Assembly: GCA_024761205.1 (NCBI GenBank)
Contig: JAMASS010000042.1
Coordinates: 1-39,350, forward strand
Reading direction: 5' to 3'
Length of the DNA stretch: 39,350 nucleotides
Source of the DNA: Limisphaerales bacterium
GTDB lineage: Bacteria; Verrucomicrobiota; Verrucomicrobiia; Limisphaerales; AAA164-E04
The notes under the pieces were generated by a model, which saw only the letters and a list, made by a program, of their open reading frames with translations, was not told where the DNA came from and searched no databases. A program made the translations under genes and the position numbers. Positions 27,664-38,110 of the stretch are shown here, piece after piece (position 1 is the stretch's first letter; each line of letters opens with the position of its first letter).

Positions 27664-28468
27664 TTGACAAAGTGTTTTATTCGAAGAGGAGTGATGGAAA
27701 CACGGCGTGGAGTGCCCCAAGTGCCACGCCCAAAAACAAGCCGCAGAACGGCGCACGCGCCCGGGCGTTTGGCGTTGCCGGAAGGATTTCACCGTGCGGA
27801 TCGGCTCGGTGTTCGAGCGCGGCCATGTCTCCTTGCAAACATGGCTTTACGCCGTCTATCTGCTGAACATGGGGCGCAAGAGGGTGTCTCTTCATGGCAG
27901 CTTTCCAGGGTCTTGGGAGTGACACCCAAGACGGCGTGGTTCATGGAGCAGCGCATTGGCGAGGCCTGTGAGGAGGCTAAAATTTACCTCGAAGGCGTCA
28001 TTGAGATAGATGAAACCTACCTAGGCGGCAAGGACGCGGCCCGGCGGGCAAGATGCCCGTAGCGGGGATGCGGGAAAGAAACGGAGGGGTCTCGCTGTTC
28101 CCGGCGGAGAGGGTGAGCCAAGCCTGTCATGTTCGCTCTCATCCGCCGCCGCGTGGCTCCCCCATTTACACGGATGACTTCCCCTCTTACACGGGGCCGG
28201 AGAGGCTCTGGTATCGGCAGCGCCGGGTGAATCATTCCGCCCGGCAATATGCGGAAGGGCAGGTCCGCACCAAGGGCATTGAGAGCGTTTGGGCCGTGTT
28301 GAAGCGGGGATTTTACGGCACCATTGGAGCTGCAGGCATTGCTCCCGGTATCTGAACGAGTTCGCCTGGCGCATCAATCAAAGTGTGAACACGGCTGAAG
28401 ATTGGCTGGGCACGGTGTGTCGAGGGACTTTTGGCAAGCGGTTGACCGGGGCGATGCTCACCAAATAA
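27664..28468 (+). mobile_element. IS1595-type transposase remnant
   Basis: The zinc-ribbon start C-P-K-C-H-A-Q-K-Q with R-P-G-V-W-R-C-R-K-D-F-T-V-R-I-G-S-V-F is readable from about 27712. The second zinc-ligand pair is reduced because about three residues are missing after W-R-C. Then come V-S-L-Q-T-W-L-Y-A-V-Y-L-L and, in another frame, W-Q-L-S-R-V-L-G-V-T-P-K-T-A-W-F-M-E-Q-R-I. The catalytic I-E-I-D-E-T-Y-L-G-G-K and, after another shift, I-Y-T-D-D-F-P-S-Y follow. Next are V-N-H-S-A-R-Q-Y-A and G-I-E-S-V-W-A-V-L-K-R-G-F-Y-G-T, and the last frame ends at 28466-28468. These are the ISXO2-like DDE motifs of the IS1595 family. At least three frameshifts make it dead. I did not find convincing terminal inverted repeats. 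Confidence 0.75.
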
Positions 28469-28795: not shown

Positions 28796-29184
28796 TGGCG
28801 GGGTAGAGAGGGAAGGCTACCTCCTGAGCGAGCCCATCCAACACACGCGCAAAGTCGTGGCCCAAGTCAAGAGCGCCCAACCCGCCGCTGACCAGATTCG
28901 GGCATTCTGCCACACCATCGGCAAAGAAAAAGCCGCCGCAAGGCATCCTCATCACCGTAGAGACCATCTCATCTCGGAGGGGCGTATTGAAGCAAAGATG
29001 AACCCGGCACCTTCCCCCATGAATAGACTCCCCCAACACCTATCCCCGTCTCCAAGCCTGGAGCATGAAAGAATACTTCGAGGAACAGCAAATGCCCAAA
29101 CTCCCCCCGCTAGCCGACCCCTTCACCGGCAAGCCCATGGCCCAAGCCTCCTGCTGGGCCGGCTACCCTCAGCTAACCCCCTAA
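28796..29184 (+). pseudogene. DNA methylase-linked restriction domain, tail remnant
   Basis: The first frame reads D-G-G-V-E-R-E-G-Y-L-L and K-V-V-A-Q-V-K-S-A-Q-P-A-A-D-Q-I-R-A-F. It continues T-I-G-K-E-K-A-A-A, then after a shift G-I-L-I-T-V-E-T-I-S. After stops comes T-Y-P-R-L-Q-A-W-S-M-K-E-Y-F, and then P-K-L-P-P-L-A-D-P-F-T-G-K-P-M. D-G-G ... Q-V-K-S is the PD-(D/E)xK-type core often fused behind adenine-specific DNA methylases, and Y-P-R-x-Q is the typical closing motif. The methylase part itself is not visible. It follows the IS1595 remnant closely. Confidence 0.6.
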
Positions 29185-29439
29185 ATTTCTATGAAAACAG
29201 CCTCCCCTTGTGGCATCAAGTATGTAATCCCCTTTCCTCGAGCCGGGAACCCAATCGATGCGTCGAACCAAAACCAATTTATCACGGGGACCAATTTCGT
29301 TTTTACCAATCACATCCTAGGCATCGAAAAACCTCGTCGCGCAGGCAAGGGCTAAGGATGAACTAACCATAGCGAAGATTTCTTCACTCTCCTCAGGCTG
29401 ATCGTTCCCTGGCCCAATTATTTTTCTCCCCTCCACTAG

Positions 29440-33080: not shown

Positions 33081-34490
33081 ATGAAATGCAACACGATCCT
33101 CCTGTTCGCCTTTTTGTGCACTCCCAGGCTCGGAGCCAGTGAGTTTTCCAACATTATTTTGGTTCTCGCCGATGATCAGGGGTGGACAGGGACTCCGTTA
33201 CAGATGGATGGTCGTTACTGAGGATCCAGAAGCGGTCGTTACCGAACGCCAAATTTCCAGCGGCTGGCCAGCGAGGGGATGGAGTTTTCGAATGGCTATG
33301 CTCCTGCTCCGAATGGTTCGACTACGGGATGAATATTCAGACCGGTAAGAGGTCCGCACGCTTGGGGGCGACGGACGTTATTGATGTCGTGCTGCGTGAC
33401 GGGCGCCGGAGCTTTTTATAATCGGTTTTACATCAATAAACCCATGGTGTTGCTGCTGCCGATAACGGATCTGCCGGATGATGGAGCTCATCATTGTTGA
33501 AACGATGAAATCCGAACTACCGGCCGGTCCATTTTGGCAAGTGGCATATGGGAGGCGGATCGCGTTGATGGGTATGACGAACATAGCGGTATGACTAGCA
33601 ATCGCAAGGGGAACCTTGGCGATTGCCCGATCCCAGTGTACGGGAGAGGTGACGGAGCAAGCCGTTCAGTTCATCAAAAAGCATGGTGAACAGGGAACTC
33701 TATTTTTTTAGTGTTCTACTCGTGGTTCACATGCCGATTCTCGTTTGAGATGAGACCATTGAGCGATACTCCAAGATGTCCAGTTGCCAGCGTCTCAATC
33801 GCGGTTATGGAGCCACGACCGATGAACTCGATCAAGAGGGTGGGTGCGATCCTGGACTAGATTGAGGCATCGGACCTAAAGGAAAGCACCTATGTGATTT
33901 ACACTTCCGATAACGGTAGCGAGATGAGCGAGGGAGCGATCACCACCAATGTACCCTTGGGCGCGGGGAAAGACCCATGTTTGGGAAGGAGGGATTCGTG
34001 TGCCGCTCGTCATTTGTGGGCCGGGGATTGCCGCCGGAACTCAGAGCAATGTGGCGGCCATCGGCTATGATTTCTTACCCACCGTTGTGGCGTAAGCGAA
34101 AGCTGAGGCCTTCCTTCACGATTATGTCGATGGTGGCAGTTTGGCTGGTGTGCTGGCCAATTGTGGAAGGGGTGAGGTCAAACGCGGTACGCCGCCGCTG
34201 ATCTGGCACTACAGTGCCTATCGCAATCACAGGCGCGTGATGCCGCAGGCTGCTATTCGGCGCGGACCGCACAAATTGATCTGGAAGATCGAGTCCGACC
34301 GAGAGTAGTTATTTGATTTGACTTCGATGATCAACGAGACCGCCGATCTGCTACGTTTTCGGCCAAAGATCGCCCAGGAACTGGAACGGGCACTCAAGGG
34401 CTATTTTGCTAGATGCGATGTGAAGCTCCCGACCCGCAATCCGGATTATGAACCAGCCAAAGATCAGGGACTACGAACGCGTGGGCGGTA
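33081..34490 (+). pseudogene. Sulfatase (alkaline phosphatase superfamily), inactivated
   Basis: ATG at 33081 starts a signal peptide, then N-I-I-L-V-L-A-D-D-Q-G-W-T-G-T, the metal-binding D-D-Q-G-W of type I sulfatases. A TGA stands at 33219-33221. Next is R-T-P-N-F-Q-R-L-A-S-E-G-M-E-F-S-N-G-Y-A-P-A-P-N. The formylglycine site C-x-P-x-R should follow, but the sequence is G-S-T-T-G (33315-33329), then a TGA. Later pieces are V-I-Y-T-S-D-N-G-S (metal ligands), V-W-E-G-G-I-R-V-P-L-V-I-C-G-P-G, Y-D-F-L-P-T-V-V and L-I-W-H-Y-S-A-Y-R-N. The tail ends at 34488-34490. Full length is still traceable. It would have removed sulfate esters outside the cytoplasm. Confidence 0.8.
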
Positions 34491-34611: not shown

Positions 34612-35430
34612 CTATCGCGGAAATAGTCGCTTGTATTCGTTAGTCGTATCCTTCGCGGCGGATTCGGAATCCGGGATTGGGAAACACTCAGCGGAGATGA
34701 AGCGGTCGTAACCGGTTTTAATCAAGGCTTTCGCTATCGCTTCCAGATTAAGGTGTCCGCGTCCGGCAGCCTGGCGATTGGAATCCACAAAGTGGACGTG
34801 GCCGATGTAGCCTTTGCCGGATGCCATGGCGTCAGCAGGATCGGCTTCTTCGATGCCCATGTGAAAGACGTCAGCCAGTAGTTTGACGTGTTGGGTGGAC
34901 AGGGATTGGCAAAGATCGACGCCTTGGGCGATAGTGTTGCAGAGGTTCGTCTCGTAGCGATTGAGCGGTTCATAGATCAAGGGCACGCCTTCGTTGCCGG
35001 CGATCTCACCCAAATCGTTGAGGGCTGCGCGCAACCACTCGAAGGCTTGATCGCGGGATACGTTGCCACCCCAGTGTCCTTGCATGGATCCGATGATCGC
35101 AGGGACACCGAATTGGGCGCCGTAGTGGATCATATCGGTGATGAAGTCCTTGGCTTGATCTCGTTTTAAGCTGTCTGGATCGCAGAGGGTGAGTCCGTGA
35201 ATGACCATACCGGCACCGGTGCCGACGGCGGCGATCTCGATGTTGTTCGCCTCAAGCAGTGGCTTCAGTGTGTCAGCCGGCACTTTGTTTGGCGAAGGCG
35301 CGAAAAGTTCGATGGCGTCGAATCCTAGGGAGGCCGCGGTTTGGCATCCTTTCTCGATTCCATCCCAAAGGACGAAGGGACCGCCACAGGCCTGTTCAAC
35401 GAGACTTACAGTAATAGCAGTTTTGATCAT
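34612..35430 (-). CDS. Sugar phosphate isomerase/epimerase (TIM barrel)
   Basis: Intact, 272 residues, of the xylose-isomerase-like TIM-barrel family (hydroxypyruvate isomerase, tagatose 3-epimerase and relatives). Metal ligands can be placed at Glu154 (L-I-Y-E-P-L-N-R-Y-E), Asp187 (L-L-A-D-V-F-H-M), His213 (G-H-V-H-F-V-D-S-N-R) and Glu248 (I-S-A-E-C-F). E-P-L-N-R-Y-E and V-D-S-N-R are typical of ketose 3-epimerases and 2-keto-acid-sugar isomerases. Cytoplasmic; interconverts keto sugars or their acids, exact substrate unknown. It is the third gene of a minus-strand unit: aldo/keto reductase, shrunken MDR dehydrogenase, then this gene 30 bases later. No clear Shine-Dalgarno precedes the ATG. 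Survival here suggests a retained step in sugar catabolism. Confidence 0.88.
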   Translation of the reverse strand: MIKTAITVSLVEQACGGPFVLWDGIEKGCQTAASLGFDAIELFAPSPNKVPADTLKPLLEANNIEIAAVGTGAGMVIHGLTLCDPDSLKRDQAKDFITDMIHYGAQFGVPAIIGSMQGHWGGNVSRDQAFEWLRAALNDLGEIAGNEGVPLIYEPLNRYETNLCNTIAQGVDLCQSLSTQHVKLLADVFHMGIEEADPADAMASGKGYIGHVHFVDSNRQAAGRGHLNLEAIAKALIKTGYDRFISAECFPIPDSESAAKDTTNEYKRLFPR

Positions 35431-35460: not shown

Positions 35461-35670
35461 CTATTGCACCCCGACGATGGCTTTGGTGGCGCCGGTTTCG
35501 GGTTTAGTGAAGCTATCGTCGAATTCATCCTTTATCGTGTCGAATCCAGCGCGGTGGGCGATGCCGATGCGGTCGACTTGAACGAGCACTTCGCCCGAAA
35601 CGGGTGATTGCGGTTCGTCAATGCCGATCTGTTAGAACGGCCTGGGTTCTATCAGTTGAATGGCTTTCAT
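35461..35670 (-). pseudogene. Zinc-type (MDR) sugar dehydrogenase with in-frame internal deletion
   Basis: ATG at 35670 begins M-K-A-I-Q-L-I-E-P-R-P-F, a TAA at codon 13, then I-D-E-P-Q-S-P-V-S-G-E-V-L-V-Q-V-D-R-I-G-I. This is the textbook N-terminus of medium-chain zinc alcohol/sugar dehydrogenases, where C-G-T-D should follow. Instead the same frame goes straight to A-H-R-A-G-F-D-T-I-K-D-E-F, then T-K-P-E-T-G-A-T-K-A-I-V-G-V-Q and a stop. That is the family's C-terminus (pattern H-R-x-x-F ... P-E-T-G-x-x-K-A). So 70 codons remain of about 340. Catalytic zinc and nucleotide-binding parts are gone. The spacing to both neighbours is short (18 and 30 bases), so the operon is otherwise undisturbed. 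Confidence 0.75.
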
Positions 35671-35688: not shown

Positions 35689-36621
35689 TCAGTTGTTTTC
35701 GGGGAGTCCCTCGATGTGTCCGATGTTTTTCACTGGTTCGAAGATCGCTTGGACATCTTTAAGAAGTCCCTCGTCCATTGGTGCGGCGGCCCATTTTGCC
35801 CATTTGCGGATATTGTCCGGATTCGCACTGCCGGCAATGGTAGTGGCCATGTCCGGATGAGCGATGGAGAATTGAAGCGCCAGCTGGGCGATGTCGACAC
35901 CGTGTTCGTCGCAAAGAGCAGCCGCTTTCCGGGCGGCGGCTTTGACTTCCTCGGGTTCTTTGAGCCAGGCTGGGAGCGGTGCGTTGGTTAGCAAGCGGGC
36001 GCTGAAGGGGCCGGCATTCATCGCACCGATTCCTTTTTCCTTCAGGTAGGGAACGGTTTCGTCGAGGAAGCGGGTGTTTTGCAAGGTGTATTGGTTGTAG
36101 CTCAGGACGCAGTCGACGCTGATTTGTTCAATGACAAACTTAAATATTTTCTGGGGATAACCACTGAAACCGATGTAGCGGACTTTGCCTTGGTCACGAA
36201 TCTTTTGAATTGCTGGAATCGTTTCATCGACGATTTGTTGCATGGGAACAAACTCGATGTCATGGCACAGGATGATATCGAGGTGATCGATGCCGATGCG
36301 GTGGAGGCTTACATCAATGCTCTCCACAACACGCTTGGCGGAAAAATCGAAGTGGGCGAGGTCGTAGCGACCTAATTTGGTGCAGAGTGTATATCGATCC
36401 CGGGGCACATCGCGGAGGGCGATGCCTAGCAGGACCTCGCTCATGCTGCGACCGTAGAAGGGTGAGGTATCGATGAGATCCATGCCGAGATCGAGCGCGA
36501 TGTGCACGCTTTCGAAGGCTTCGTTCAGTTTGACTTGGCGAAATTCCTGACCTAGCGATGAGGTGCCGAAGCCAACGACAGGAAGGCTGAGATCGGTATT
36601 GCCTAATTTTCGATGTTCCAT
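35689..36621 (-). CDS. Aldo/keto reductase, L-galactose/L-fucose dehydrogenase type
   Basis: Intact, 310 residues. The catalytic tetrad is present: Asp51 and Tyr56 in L-I-D-T-S-P-F-Y-G-R-S, Lys82 in L-C-T-K-L-G-R-Y-D, and His120 in I-L-C-H-D-I-E-F. The blocks F-D-F-S-A-K-R-V-V-E-S-I-D-V-S-L and C-H-D-I-E-F, with Q-I-V-D-E-T-I-P-A-I, closely follow plant-type L-galactose dehydrogenases and bacterial D-threo-aldose (L-fucose) 1-dehydrogenases. These oxidise the sugar C1 to the lactone using NAD(P). First gene of the minus-strand unit with the MDR remnant and the TIM-barrel isomerase; divergent from a broken sugar isomerase. The context supports a catabolic role on a 6-deoxy or L-sugar, but the substrate is inferred. 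No strong ribosome binding site is visible. Confidence 0.88.
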   Translation of the reverse strand: MEHRKLGNTDLSLPVVGFGTSSLGQEFRQVKLNEAFESVHIALDLGMDLIDTSPFYGRSMSEVLLGIALRDVPRDRYTLCTKLGRYDLAHFDFSAKRVVESIDVSLHRIGIDHLDIILCHDIEFVPMQQIVDETIPAIQKIRDQGKVRYIGFSGYPQKIFKFVIEQISVDCVLSYNQYTLQNTRFLDETVPYLKEKGIGAMNAGPFSARLLTNAPLPAWLKEPEEVKAAARKAAALCDEHGVDIAQLALQFSIAHPDMATTIAGSANPDNIRKWAKWAAAPMDEGLLKDVQAIFEPVKNIGHIEGLPENN

Positions 36622-36664: not shown

Positions 36665-37419
36665 GAGAGCTTGAGACAAACAAAGCGATCGAGCCAGATT
36701 AAACTTTGCCACGTGGGGTGCGGCTGCGGAGTCTGAGGTACGCTTGGGAGCGAACAAAGAAGGAGATCGGTATCGCTCGGATGATTGACTGCAAGGCAAT
36801 CGTTTTGTGGCTGGCTCGAGAGGGGATTTGCATCCGTGAGGCCAAGGATGCACGCCAGGGCTTATGATCAACTCTTAGGTGCGGTGAACCAGATGCTCGA
36901 CTATGACGCCGACATTGAGATCTGGATCGAACCGAAACCCAAGGAACCGACGGATCAGGCCTATGTGCCAATGATTGGTCATGCGATCGTCTTGGCCTCC
37001 TATGCGTCGTCGGGTCTGAAACGTGTCAAAGGCTTGATCCAAACTGCCCGTGCGCAACTCGCGGGATTGGATCCGTCTGAATGATCAAAATGGTTTGAAG
37101 TATGATCAGGATAAGAATTTCGGTTCTTCCAACTTGCGTGCGGCCTTCAATCAGGTTCGCGTGCTCGAGGAGAACGGATACGGAAAGAACGGGGAATTCA
37201 TCGGCCTGGATGTCAAAGCGATGCGGACGCAACCGGGGTTGCCAGCCGGTGCCCAATCACTTGAAAAACAGCCAGAGGATTTGCAATCACCTAGTTGACA
37301 AGGTTCGAGGCTATGATCGGCAGAAAGAGACGGCGTTTCGTGAGGCGCGGAACTATGAGGGGCTGGAGATGCATGTGGTTGAGCATCTTTTTGGGAGCGA
37401 GATAAGGATTAAGGCTTAA
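36665..37419 (+). pseudogene. Xylose isomerase-like sugar isomerase, inactivated
   Basis: Frames join to give V-L-W-L-A-R-E-G-I-C-I-R-E-A-K-D-A, then Y-D-Q-L-L-G-A-V-N-Q-M-L-D-Y, and the signature I-E-I-W-I-E-P-K-P-K-E-P-T-D-Q-A-Y near 36930. R-A-Q-L-A-G-L-D-P-S follows, then directly L-N-D-Q-N-G-L-K-Y-D-Q-D-K-N-F-G, where about 14 residues of the family are missing. L-D-V-K-A-M-R-T-Q-P, another shift, and Y-E-G-L-E-M-H-V-V-E-H-L-F-G end at 37417-37419. This is a TIM-barrel aldose isomerase of the xylose/rhamnose isomerase-like type. The N-terminal third is reduced or lost (F-A-T-W-G-A-A-A-E-S-E-V-R-L-G at 36700 may belong to it). It is divergent from the aldo/keto reductase and probably acted in the same pathway. 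Confidence 0.7.
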
Positions 37420-37438: not shown

Positions 37439-38110
37439 ATGCGAATCTTGTTTCTGGCTCTGGTTTTGGGGCCGTTGGTTTTGGTGGGCGGGAGATCTCT
37501 TTTGGCGGAAGGTGTAGCTTTATTACGATGCGAATGAGGCGTGTGCGGTTGAGGATTTTAATAATGATGGCTTTCTGGATATTTCCGCGGAGCGTAATCT
37601 GTTTTTGTGGCCGGATTATGTGGCGCAGCTGTTGCGGGATGTGGGGGAACACGGGGTGGACTATGCTGCCAACAATGGGGAGCATGGCCTTTGATGTGGA
37701 CGACAACGGGTGGTTAGATGTGATCTTTGGGGCGTTCATGGATTCATTTATGAGGATTGGACTAGTAGGGAAGTGCCCGATGGTGGCTGTGGATTTGAAT
37801 GGAGATGGTCGGAACGATGTGATTTTGGGGGGAGAAGAGCGGGCACAATTATGGATTGTGTTAGATGGAACAACTGATGCCCGCTGATGAGAAGACGAAG
37901 TGTGGCTGGCACATGTGATTGACAAGTCTTGGTCCCAAGCGCACGTGCTGCTTGGGGGGATATTGACAATGACGGTCAGTTGGATTTGGTGATCAGGAAG
38001 CGGGGTTCGGGTTGTTTATTCGAGCTTGTGGTCTCGACAAAAATCACTGGCAAGATTTGGTCGTCGCGGGGAAGACGGGACGTTTGTTCTTTCGGGATTT
38101 CCTGATTTAA
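37439..38110 (+). pseudogene. FG-GAP (VCBS) repeat protein, inactivated and shortened
   Basis: ATG at 37439, 19 bases after the isomerase stop, opens a signal peptide (M-R-I-L-F-L-A-L-V-L-G-P-L-V-L-V-G-G). In following frames come Y-Y-D-A-N-E-A-C-A-V-E-D-F-N-N-D-G-F-L-D-I and F-D-V-D-D-N-G-W-L-D-V-I-F-G. Next are V-A-V-D-L-N-G-D-G-R-N-D-V-I-L-G-G, K-S-W-S-Q-A-H-V-L-L, D-I-D-N-D-G-Q-L-D-L-V-I and N-H-W-Q-D-L-V-V-A-G-K-T-G. These are calcium-binding FG-GAP blades of a secreted beta-propeller. Several blades are deleted between the last pieces. The end merges into unrecognised GC-rich sequence. A different FG-GAP gene decays at 2.7 kb. Confidence 0.68.

Follow-up and report, generated by a model that had tools for sequence, protein, structure and literature searches.

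The window, by which we mean the whole stretch of 39,350 nucleotides analysed here (contig C37 of the source genome, G000), carries on its minus strand two intact genes with the remains of a third between them. At 35689-36621 lies an AKR of 310 aa resembling L-galactose dehydrogenase (LguA-like), and at 34612-35430 a xylose-isomerase-like TIM barrel of 272 aa resembling 5-keto-L-gluconate epimerase (IolO/LguG-like). The intervening stretch, 35670-35461, is the pseudogene remnant of an LguD-like MDR, in which codons 1-37 are fused in frame to the last ~31 codons, so that both gene ends stand in one reading frame. Minus-strand translation of 35670-35464 gives MKAIQLIEPRPF, then a stop, then QIGIDEPQSPVSGEVLVQVDRIGIAHRAGFDTIKDEFDDSFTKPETGATKAIVGVQ, and the frame is closed by TAG at 35463-35461; the internal stop is codon 13 and thus falls after 12 codons. 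Searches of Pfam and NCBIfam with the remnant alone gave no match, ADH_N (PF08240) and ADH_zinc_N (PF00107) included, and its identity was therefore tested against relatives. With the MDR of the congener G002 as query, the two ends were recovered independently and in the same frame, residues 1-37 matching 35670-35560 (68% identity, E 8.6e-8) and residues 311-341 matching 35562-35467 (61%, E 8.6e-4). The 5' piece occupies 35560-35670 and the 3' piece 35464-35562 (approximately MDR residues 311-341, with one codon more than the relatives have), and the two meet at an ATC codon at 35560-35562, which forms the deletion joint.

The comparison set consisted of G000 and its congeners G001, G002 and G003. 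Both G001 and G002 have a full 342-codon MDR between the same neighbours, in the order AKR-MDR-TIM, and it is because an intact gene sits at this very place that the remnant match cannot be attributed to chance. An earlier, sequence-only reading of this DNA had proposed exactly such a comparison with related AKR-MDR-isomerase genomes, and most of what it described at the locus was borne out: the removal, in frame, of some 800 bp of internal MDR sequence, a single stop at codon 13 in the remaining frame and the preservation of both neighbours. Its account of the first 37 codons was also correct, while the 33 final codons it counted are about 31 with one extra codon, and the spacing it took to be kept is so on the AKR side (18 bp as against 15 in G002) and is longer on the TIM side (30 bp as against 18).

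Relative to G001 and G002, exactly 274 of the 342 codons (822 bp) are missing, and 273 relative to the MDR of the MAG relative L052. The endpoints of the deletion are two in-frame ATC codons, Ile37 and Ile311 of the relatives. The bases common to the two sides of the joint amount to ATC (3) in G002 and L052 and to GGATC (5) in G001, rather than the nine, GGCATCGCC, that had been put forward as mediators of the deletion. When breakpoint pairs were drawn at random from this gene at similar spacing, about 6% shared at least 3 bp and 0.5-0.9% at least 5, so a microhomology-mediated deletion is possible, though the 3-5 bp, counted in relatives rather than in the ancestor, are barely above chance. 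The in-frame joint itself is a 1-in-3 chance event. Two features of the G002 protein that belong to the zinc site of MDR enzymes, the GICGTD cysteine and the PGHE stretch, both fall inside the deleted codons 38-311; the part removed comprises the catalytic zinc-binding and nucleotide-binding (Rossmann fold) stretches, and the remnant therefore cannot be an enzyme.

Constraint was assessed by counting private changes at sites where the three relatives agree. At codon position 2, the remnant carried 9 such changes in 58 sites, compared with 3 in 278 for the adjacent AKR of G000 (Fisher p 1.1e-5) and 3 in 150 at the corresponding codons when the three relatives were combined (p 6.5e-4), whereas changes at third positions were similar (7/22 in the remnant and 19/65 in the AKR). 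The AKR and TIM genes, compared with those of G001 and G002, showed pN of 0.09-0.15 and pS of 0.74-0.80. The remnant is thus under relaxed constraint, and its two intact neighbours are under purifying selection; taken together, the excess at codon position 2 and the pN/pS of the neighbours imply that the remnant was free to drift over part of the branch, during which constraint on the neighbours persisted. As a rough estimate with wide error, made by inference rather than from a fitted model and with synonymous sites saturated, inactivation would date to between one quarter and one half of the length of G000's own branch before the present.

We conclude, with a probability of roughly 0.93, that the MDR remnant is a decaying pseudogene produced by one internal in-frame deletion. 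As the genome is a metagenome assembly, the same joint could in principle have arisen by collapse or chimerism, the assembler having skipped 822 bp of an MDR that is whole in the organism. The damage, however, extends beyond the joint, in the form of the stop, the extra codon and the 9/58 changes at codon position 2; moreover, the 3-5 bp common to the two sides are too little to collapse an assembly graph, and a search of G000 at E <= 0.001 turned up no further fragment of an MDR of this type. With unconstrained ends and two intact, conserved neighbours, the remnant is very unlikely to be a working gene shortened by assembly collapse. That the remnant has been kept for a function, either as a small peptide or as a spacer coupling translation of the AKR and TIM, might be suggested by its single frame with only one stop and by its place between two conserved genes. 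A functional small ORF was rejected on account of that stop, which comes after 12 codons, and of the relaxed constraint evident in the excess of codon-position-2 changes, and the AKR and TIM of G003 lie 4 bp apart with no such stretch between them, which makes retention for either purpose highly improbable. A role of the remnant as RNA is conceivable. Decay of an inactivated MDR is the reading adopted below; it is ordinary gene decay in a well-preserved example and not a new kind of genetic element.

The distribution of the operon in relatives gives good support to an ancestral AKR-MDR-TIM order, as judged from sequence comparison. An AKR adjoining or near a similar MDR is widespread in MAGs of Verrucomicrobiota and Planctomycetota, some of which have a TIM barrel of the same family nearby. 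G003, a one-contig genome, is the exception within the genus, with no MDR in the 4 bp between its AKR and TIM, and a search of it with the G002 MDR did not recover the operon MDR, the best match being a 55% paralog. The AKR of G003 forms a long branch in the tree. Because the MDR of L052 falls in the same clade as the operon MDR (support 100/100) and the AKR of L052 branches outside G000-G003 (support 87, quick tree), a second loss in G003 is favoured over primary absence, with moderate support and short of proof. L052 (isolate name BS301-5m) itself has a nucleotidyltransferase-like frame between its AKR and MDR (L052:3183-3954). The sister genera were set aside as a direct guide to the absence in G003, their AKR-adjoining MDR belonging to another clade. 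In these genera (L106-L112), the gene after the AKR is an MDR from that other clade, with about 60% identity to the operon MDR, a pattern that looks as though genera within a single family had swapped the partner dehydrogenase.

The sequence-only reading had also suggested that another enzyme replaced the MDR. No MDR specific to G000 was found that could be such a replacement; the closest paralog, here termed type B (G000:C34:284393-285412), has 57% identity to the intact operon MDR, is itself intact and conserved, and lies in an unrelated cluster. In all four congeners it occurs in synteny with genes that we read from their sequences as glucose-6-phosphate dehydrogenase-like and 6-phosphogluconolactonase-like. 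Although a member of the same MDR superfamily, it differs from the operon MDR in forming a separate clade in the tree, in its neighbourhood and in being intact. As a new replacement it was rejected, since it stands in the same cluster in every congener and is found alongside the operon MDR in both G001 and G002. The paralog predates the loss, and it could in principle substitute for the operon MDR. A weaker form of the proposal is that the MDR had become redundant because another enzyme, most likely this 57% paralog, took over its step. The intactness and conservation of the paralog in G000, its presence in G003, which also lacks the operon MDR, and the persistence of the AKR and TIM, as expected if the pathway still runs, speak for this. 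Inheritance of the paralog in the same cluster by all four congeners, two of which keep both dehydrogenases, weighs against it, and we regard such redundancy as unlikely.

The wider surroundings of the operon are also decayed, and the description of it as otherwise preserved applies to the AKR and TIM only, the sequences beside them being broken. On the plus strand, a divergent xylose-isomerase-like TIM-barrel gene at 36739-37395 is distributed over several broken frames (intact, with 400 aa, in G001), and its N-terminal part was not found; it is followed at 37488-38092 (plus strand) by an FG-GAP-repeat protein pseudogene in several frames, the intact counterparts of which have 405-427 aa in G002 and G001. 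A broken sulfatase-like stretch lies downstream of the operon at 33955-34368 (plus strand). In a sampling of pseudogene load over stretches of 20 kb, cover by ORFs of at least 200 aa was 0.33 in the window and mostly 0.40-0.75 in other sampled stretches of G000, compared with mostly 0.72-0.94 in G001-G003, where a few stretches of G002 and G003 fell to 0.52-0.64. Queried with an IS1595-type transposase, G000 yielded 47 matches, many being fragments, and G003 seven; G001 and G002 yielded none. Near-identical copies of such a transposase, in pieces, and of an unnamed reading frame occur in the window at 27707-28352 and 28857-29237 (both plus strand), and the unnamed frame recurs on contig C34 next to the type-B MDR cluster.

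By its assembly statistics (92 contigs, among them contigs of 649,894 bp and 96,223 bp), which agree with the published contig number, longest contig and N50, G000 is identified as Forcepia_v2, a MAG of 'Candidatus Thermopylae lasonolidus' in the GTDB genus UBA2970. This is a putative lasonolide-producing sponge symbiont, and the MAG was published as a case of early genome reduction, with 16.62% pseudogenes and low coding density (PMC9600693). One stretch of G000 (L149, G000:C36:1-20000) has 70% GC and a single open frame of more than 6300 codons, and probably belongs to the las trans-AT PKS cluster. The MDR remnant resembles the pseudogenes of an early host-restricted symbiont reported there and, by the assembly statistics, comes from the same genome; the paper counts pseudogenes by length, and those of its passages that were available make no mention of the MDR gene (PMC9600693). 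The remnant is one of numerous pseudogenes in a symbiont for which gene loss has been described before.

The following course of events may be envisaged. An ancestral AKR-MDR-TIM operon would have encoded activities that were probably those of an L-galactose/L-glucose dehydrogenase, an L-galactonate/L-gluconate 5-dehydrogenase and a 5-keto-L-gluconate 4-epimerase. In the lineage of a host-associated Verrucomicrobiota symbiont, host restriction would have relaxed selection and the MDR would have become dispensable. A single internal deletion of ~822 bp between two in-frame ATC codons, presumably arising by slippage or by illegitimate recombination with little homology, removed the catalytic core. 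The remnant gathered substitutions free of constraint, an additional codon and a stop, the last of these presumably later than the deletion, while the AKR and TIM remained under purifying selection. That both are retained where the MDR has been lost, in two of the four genomes, is the only mildly surprising observation. If the MDR was lost twice in the genus, leaving a remnant in G000 and no trace in G003, with the AKR and TIM adjacent and under selection, the pair may share a role that is independent of the dehydrogenase, a suggestion that we offer tentatively. The locus provides a clean example of how an operon can be stripped of a single step as the genome of a sponge symbiont, a putative maker of a natural product, enters reduction, and it raises the question of which function is left to the AKR and the epimerase-like protein once the intervening dehydrogenase is gone.

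By similarity, the predicted functions are those of a small operon for sugar oxidation. The best PDB matches of the AKR were L-galactose dehydrogenases (E 1.1e-85). For the TIM barrel, the best NCBIfam model was IolO, at 216 bits and thus below its cut-off of 300, and the best PDB match was TM_0416, with ketose 3-epimerases also among its solved relatives; the intact congener MDR shows similarity to threonine, RspB and polyol dehydrogenases. Taken as a set, the three genes are closest in kind to LguA, LguD and LguG of the Luteolibacter L-glucose/L-galactose pathway. The downstream part of such a route, sought as tagaturonate reductase and altronate dehydratase, is patchy across the genus, a UxaA-type dehydratase being present in all four congeners and a Mannitol_dh_C-type reductase in G002 only. 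In Luteolibacter LG18, which has a dual pathway for the two sugars, disruption of lguD impairs growth on both and disruption of lguG impairs growth on L-glucose only (PMC12632266). LguD of LG18, like the operon MDR, is a Verrucomicrobiota enzyme acting with LguA (L-galactose/L-glucose dehydrogenase) and LguG (5-keto-L-gluconate 4-epimerase), and its reported N-terminus, MKTLVLREPG, resembles the MKAIQLKEPK of the intact congener MDR (PMC12632266). The arrangement differs, in that lguG of LG18 lies outside the lguABCDEF cluster, whereas the epimerase-like gene is here within the operon (PMC12632266). The two systems also differ in that the G000 counterpart of LguD, likened to it by enzyme kind and by the N-terminus of the congener MDR, has been destroyed.
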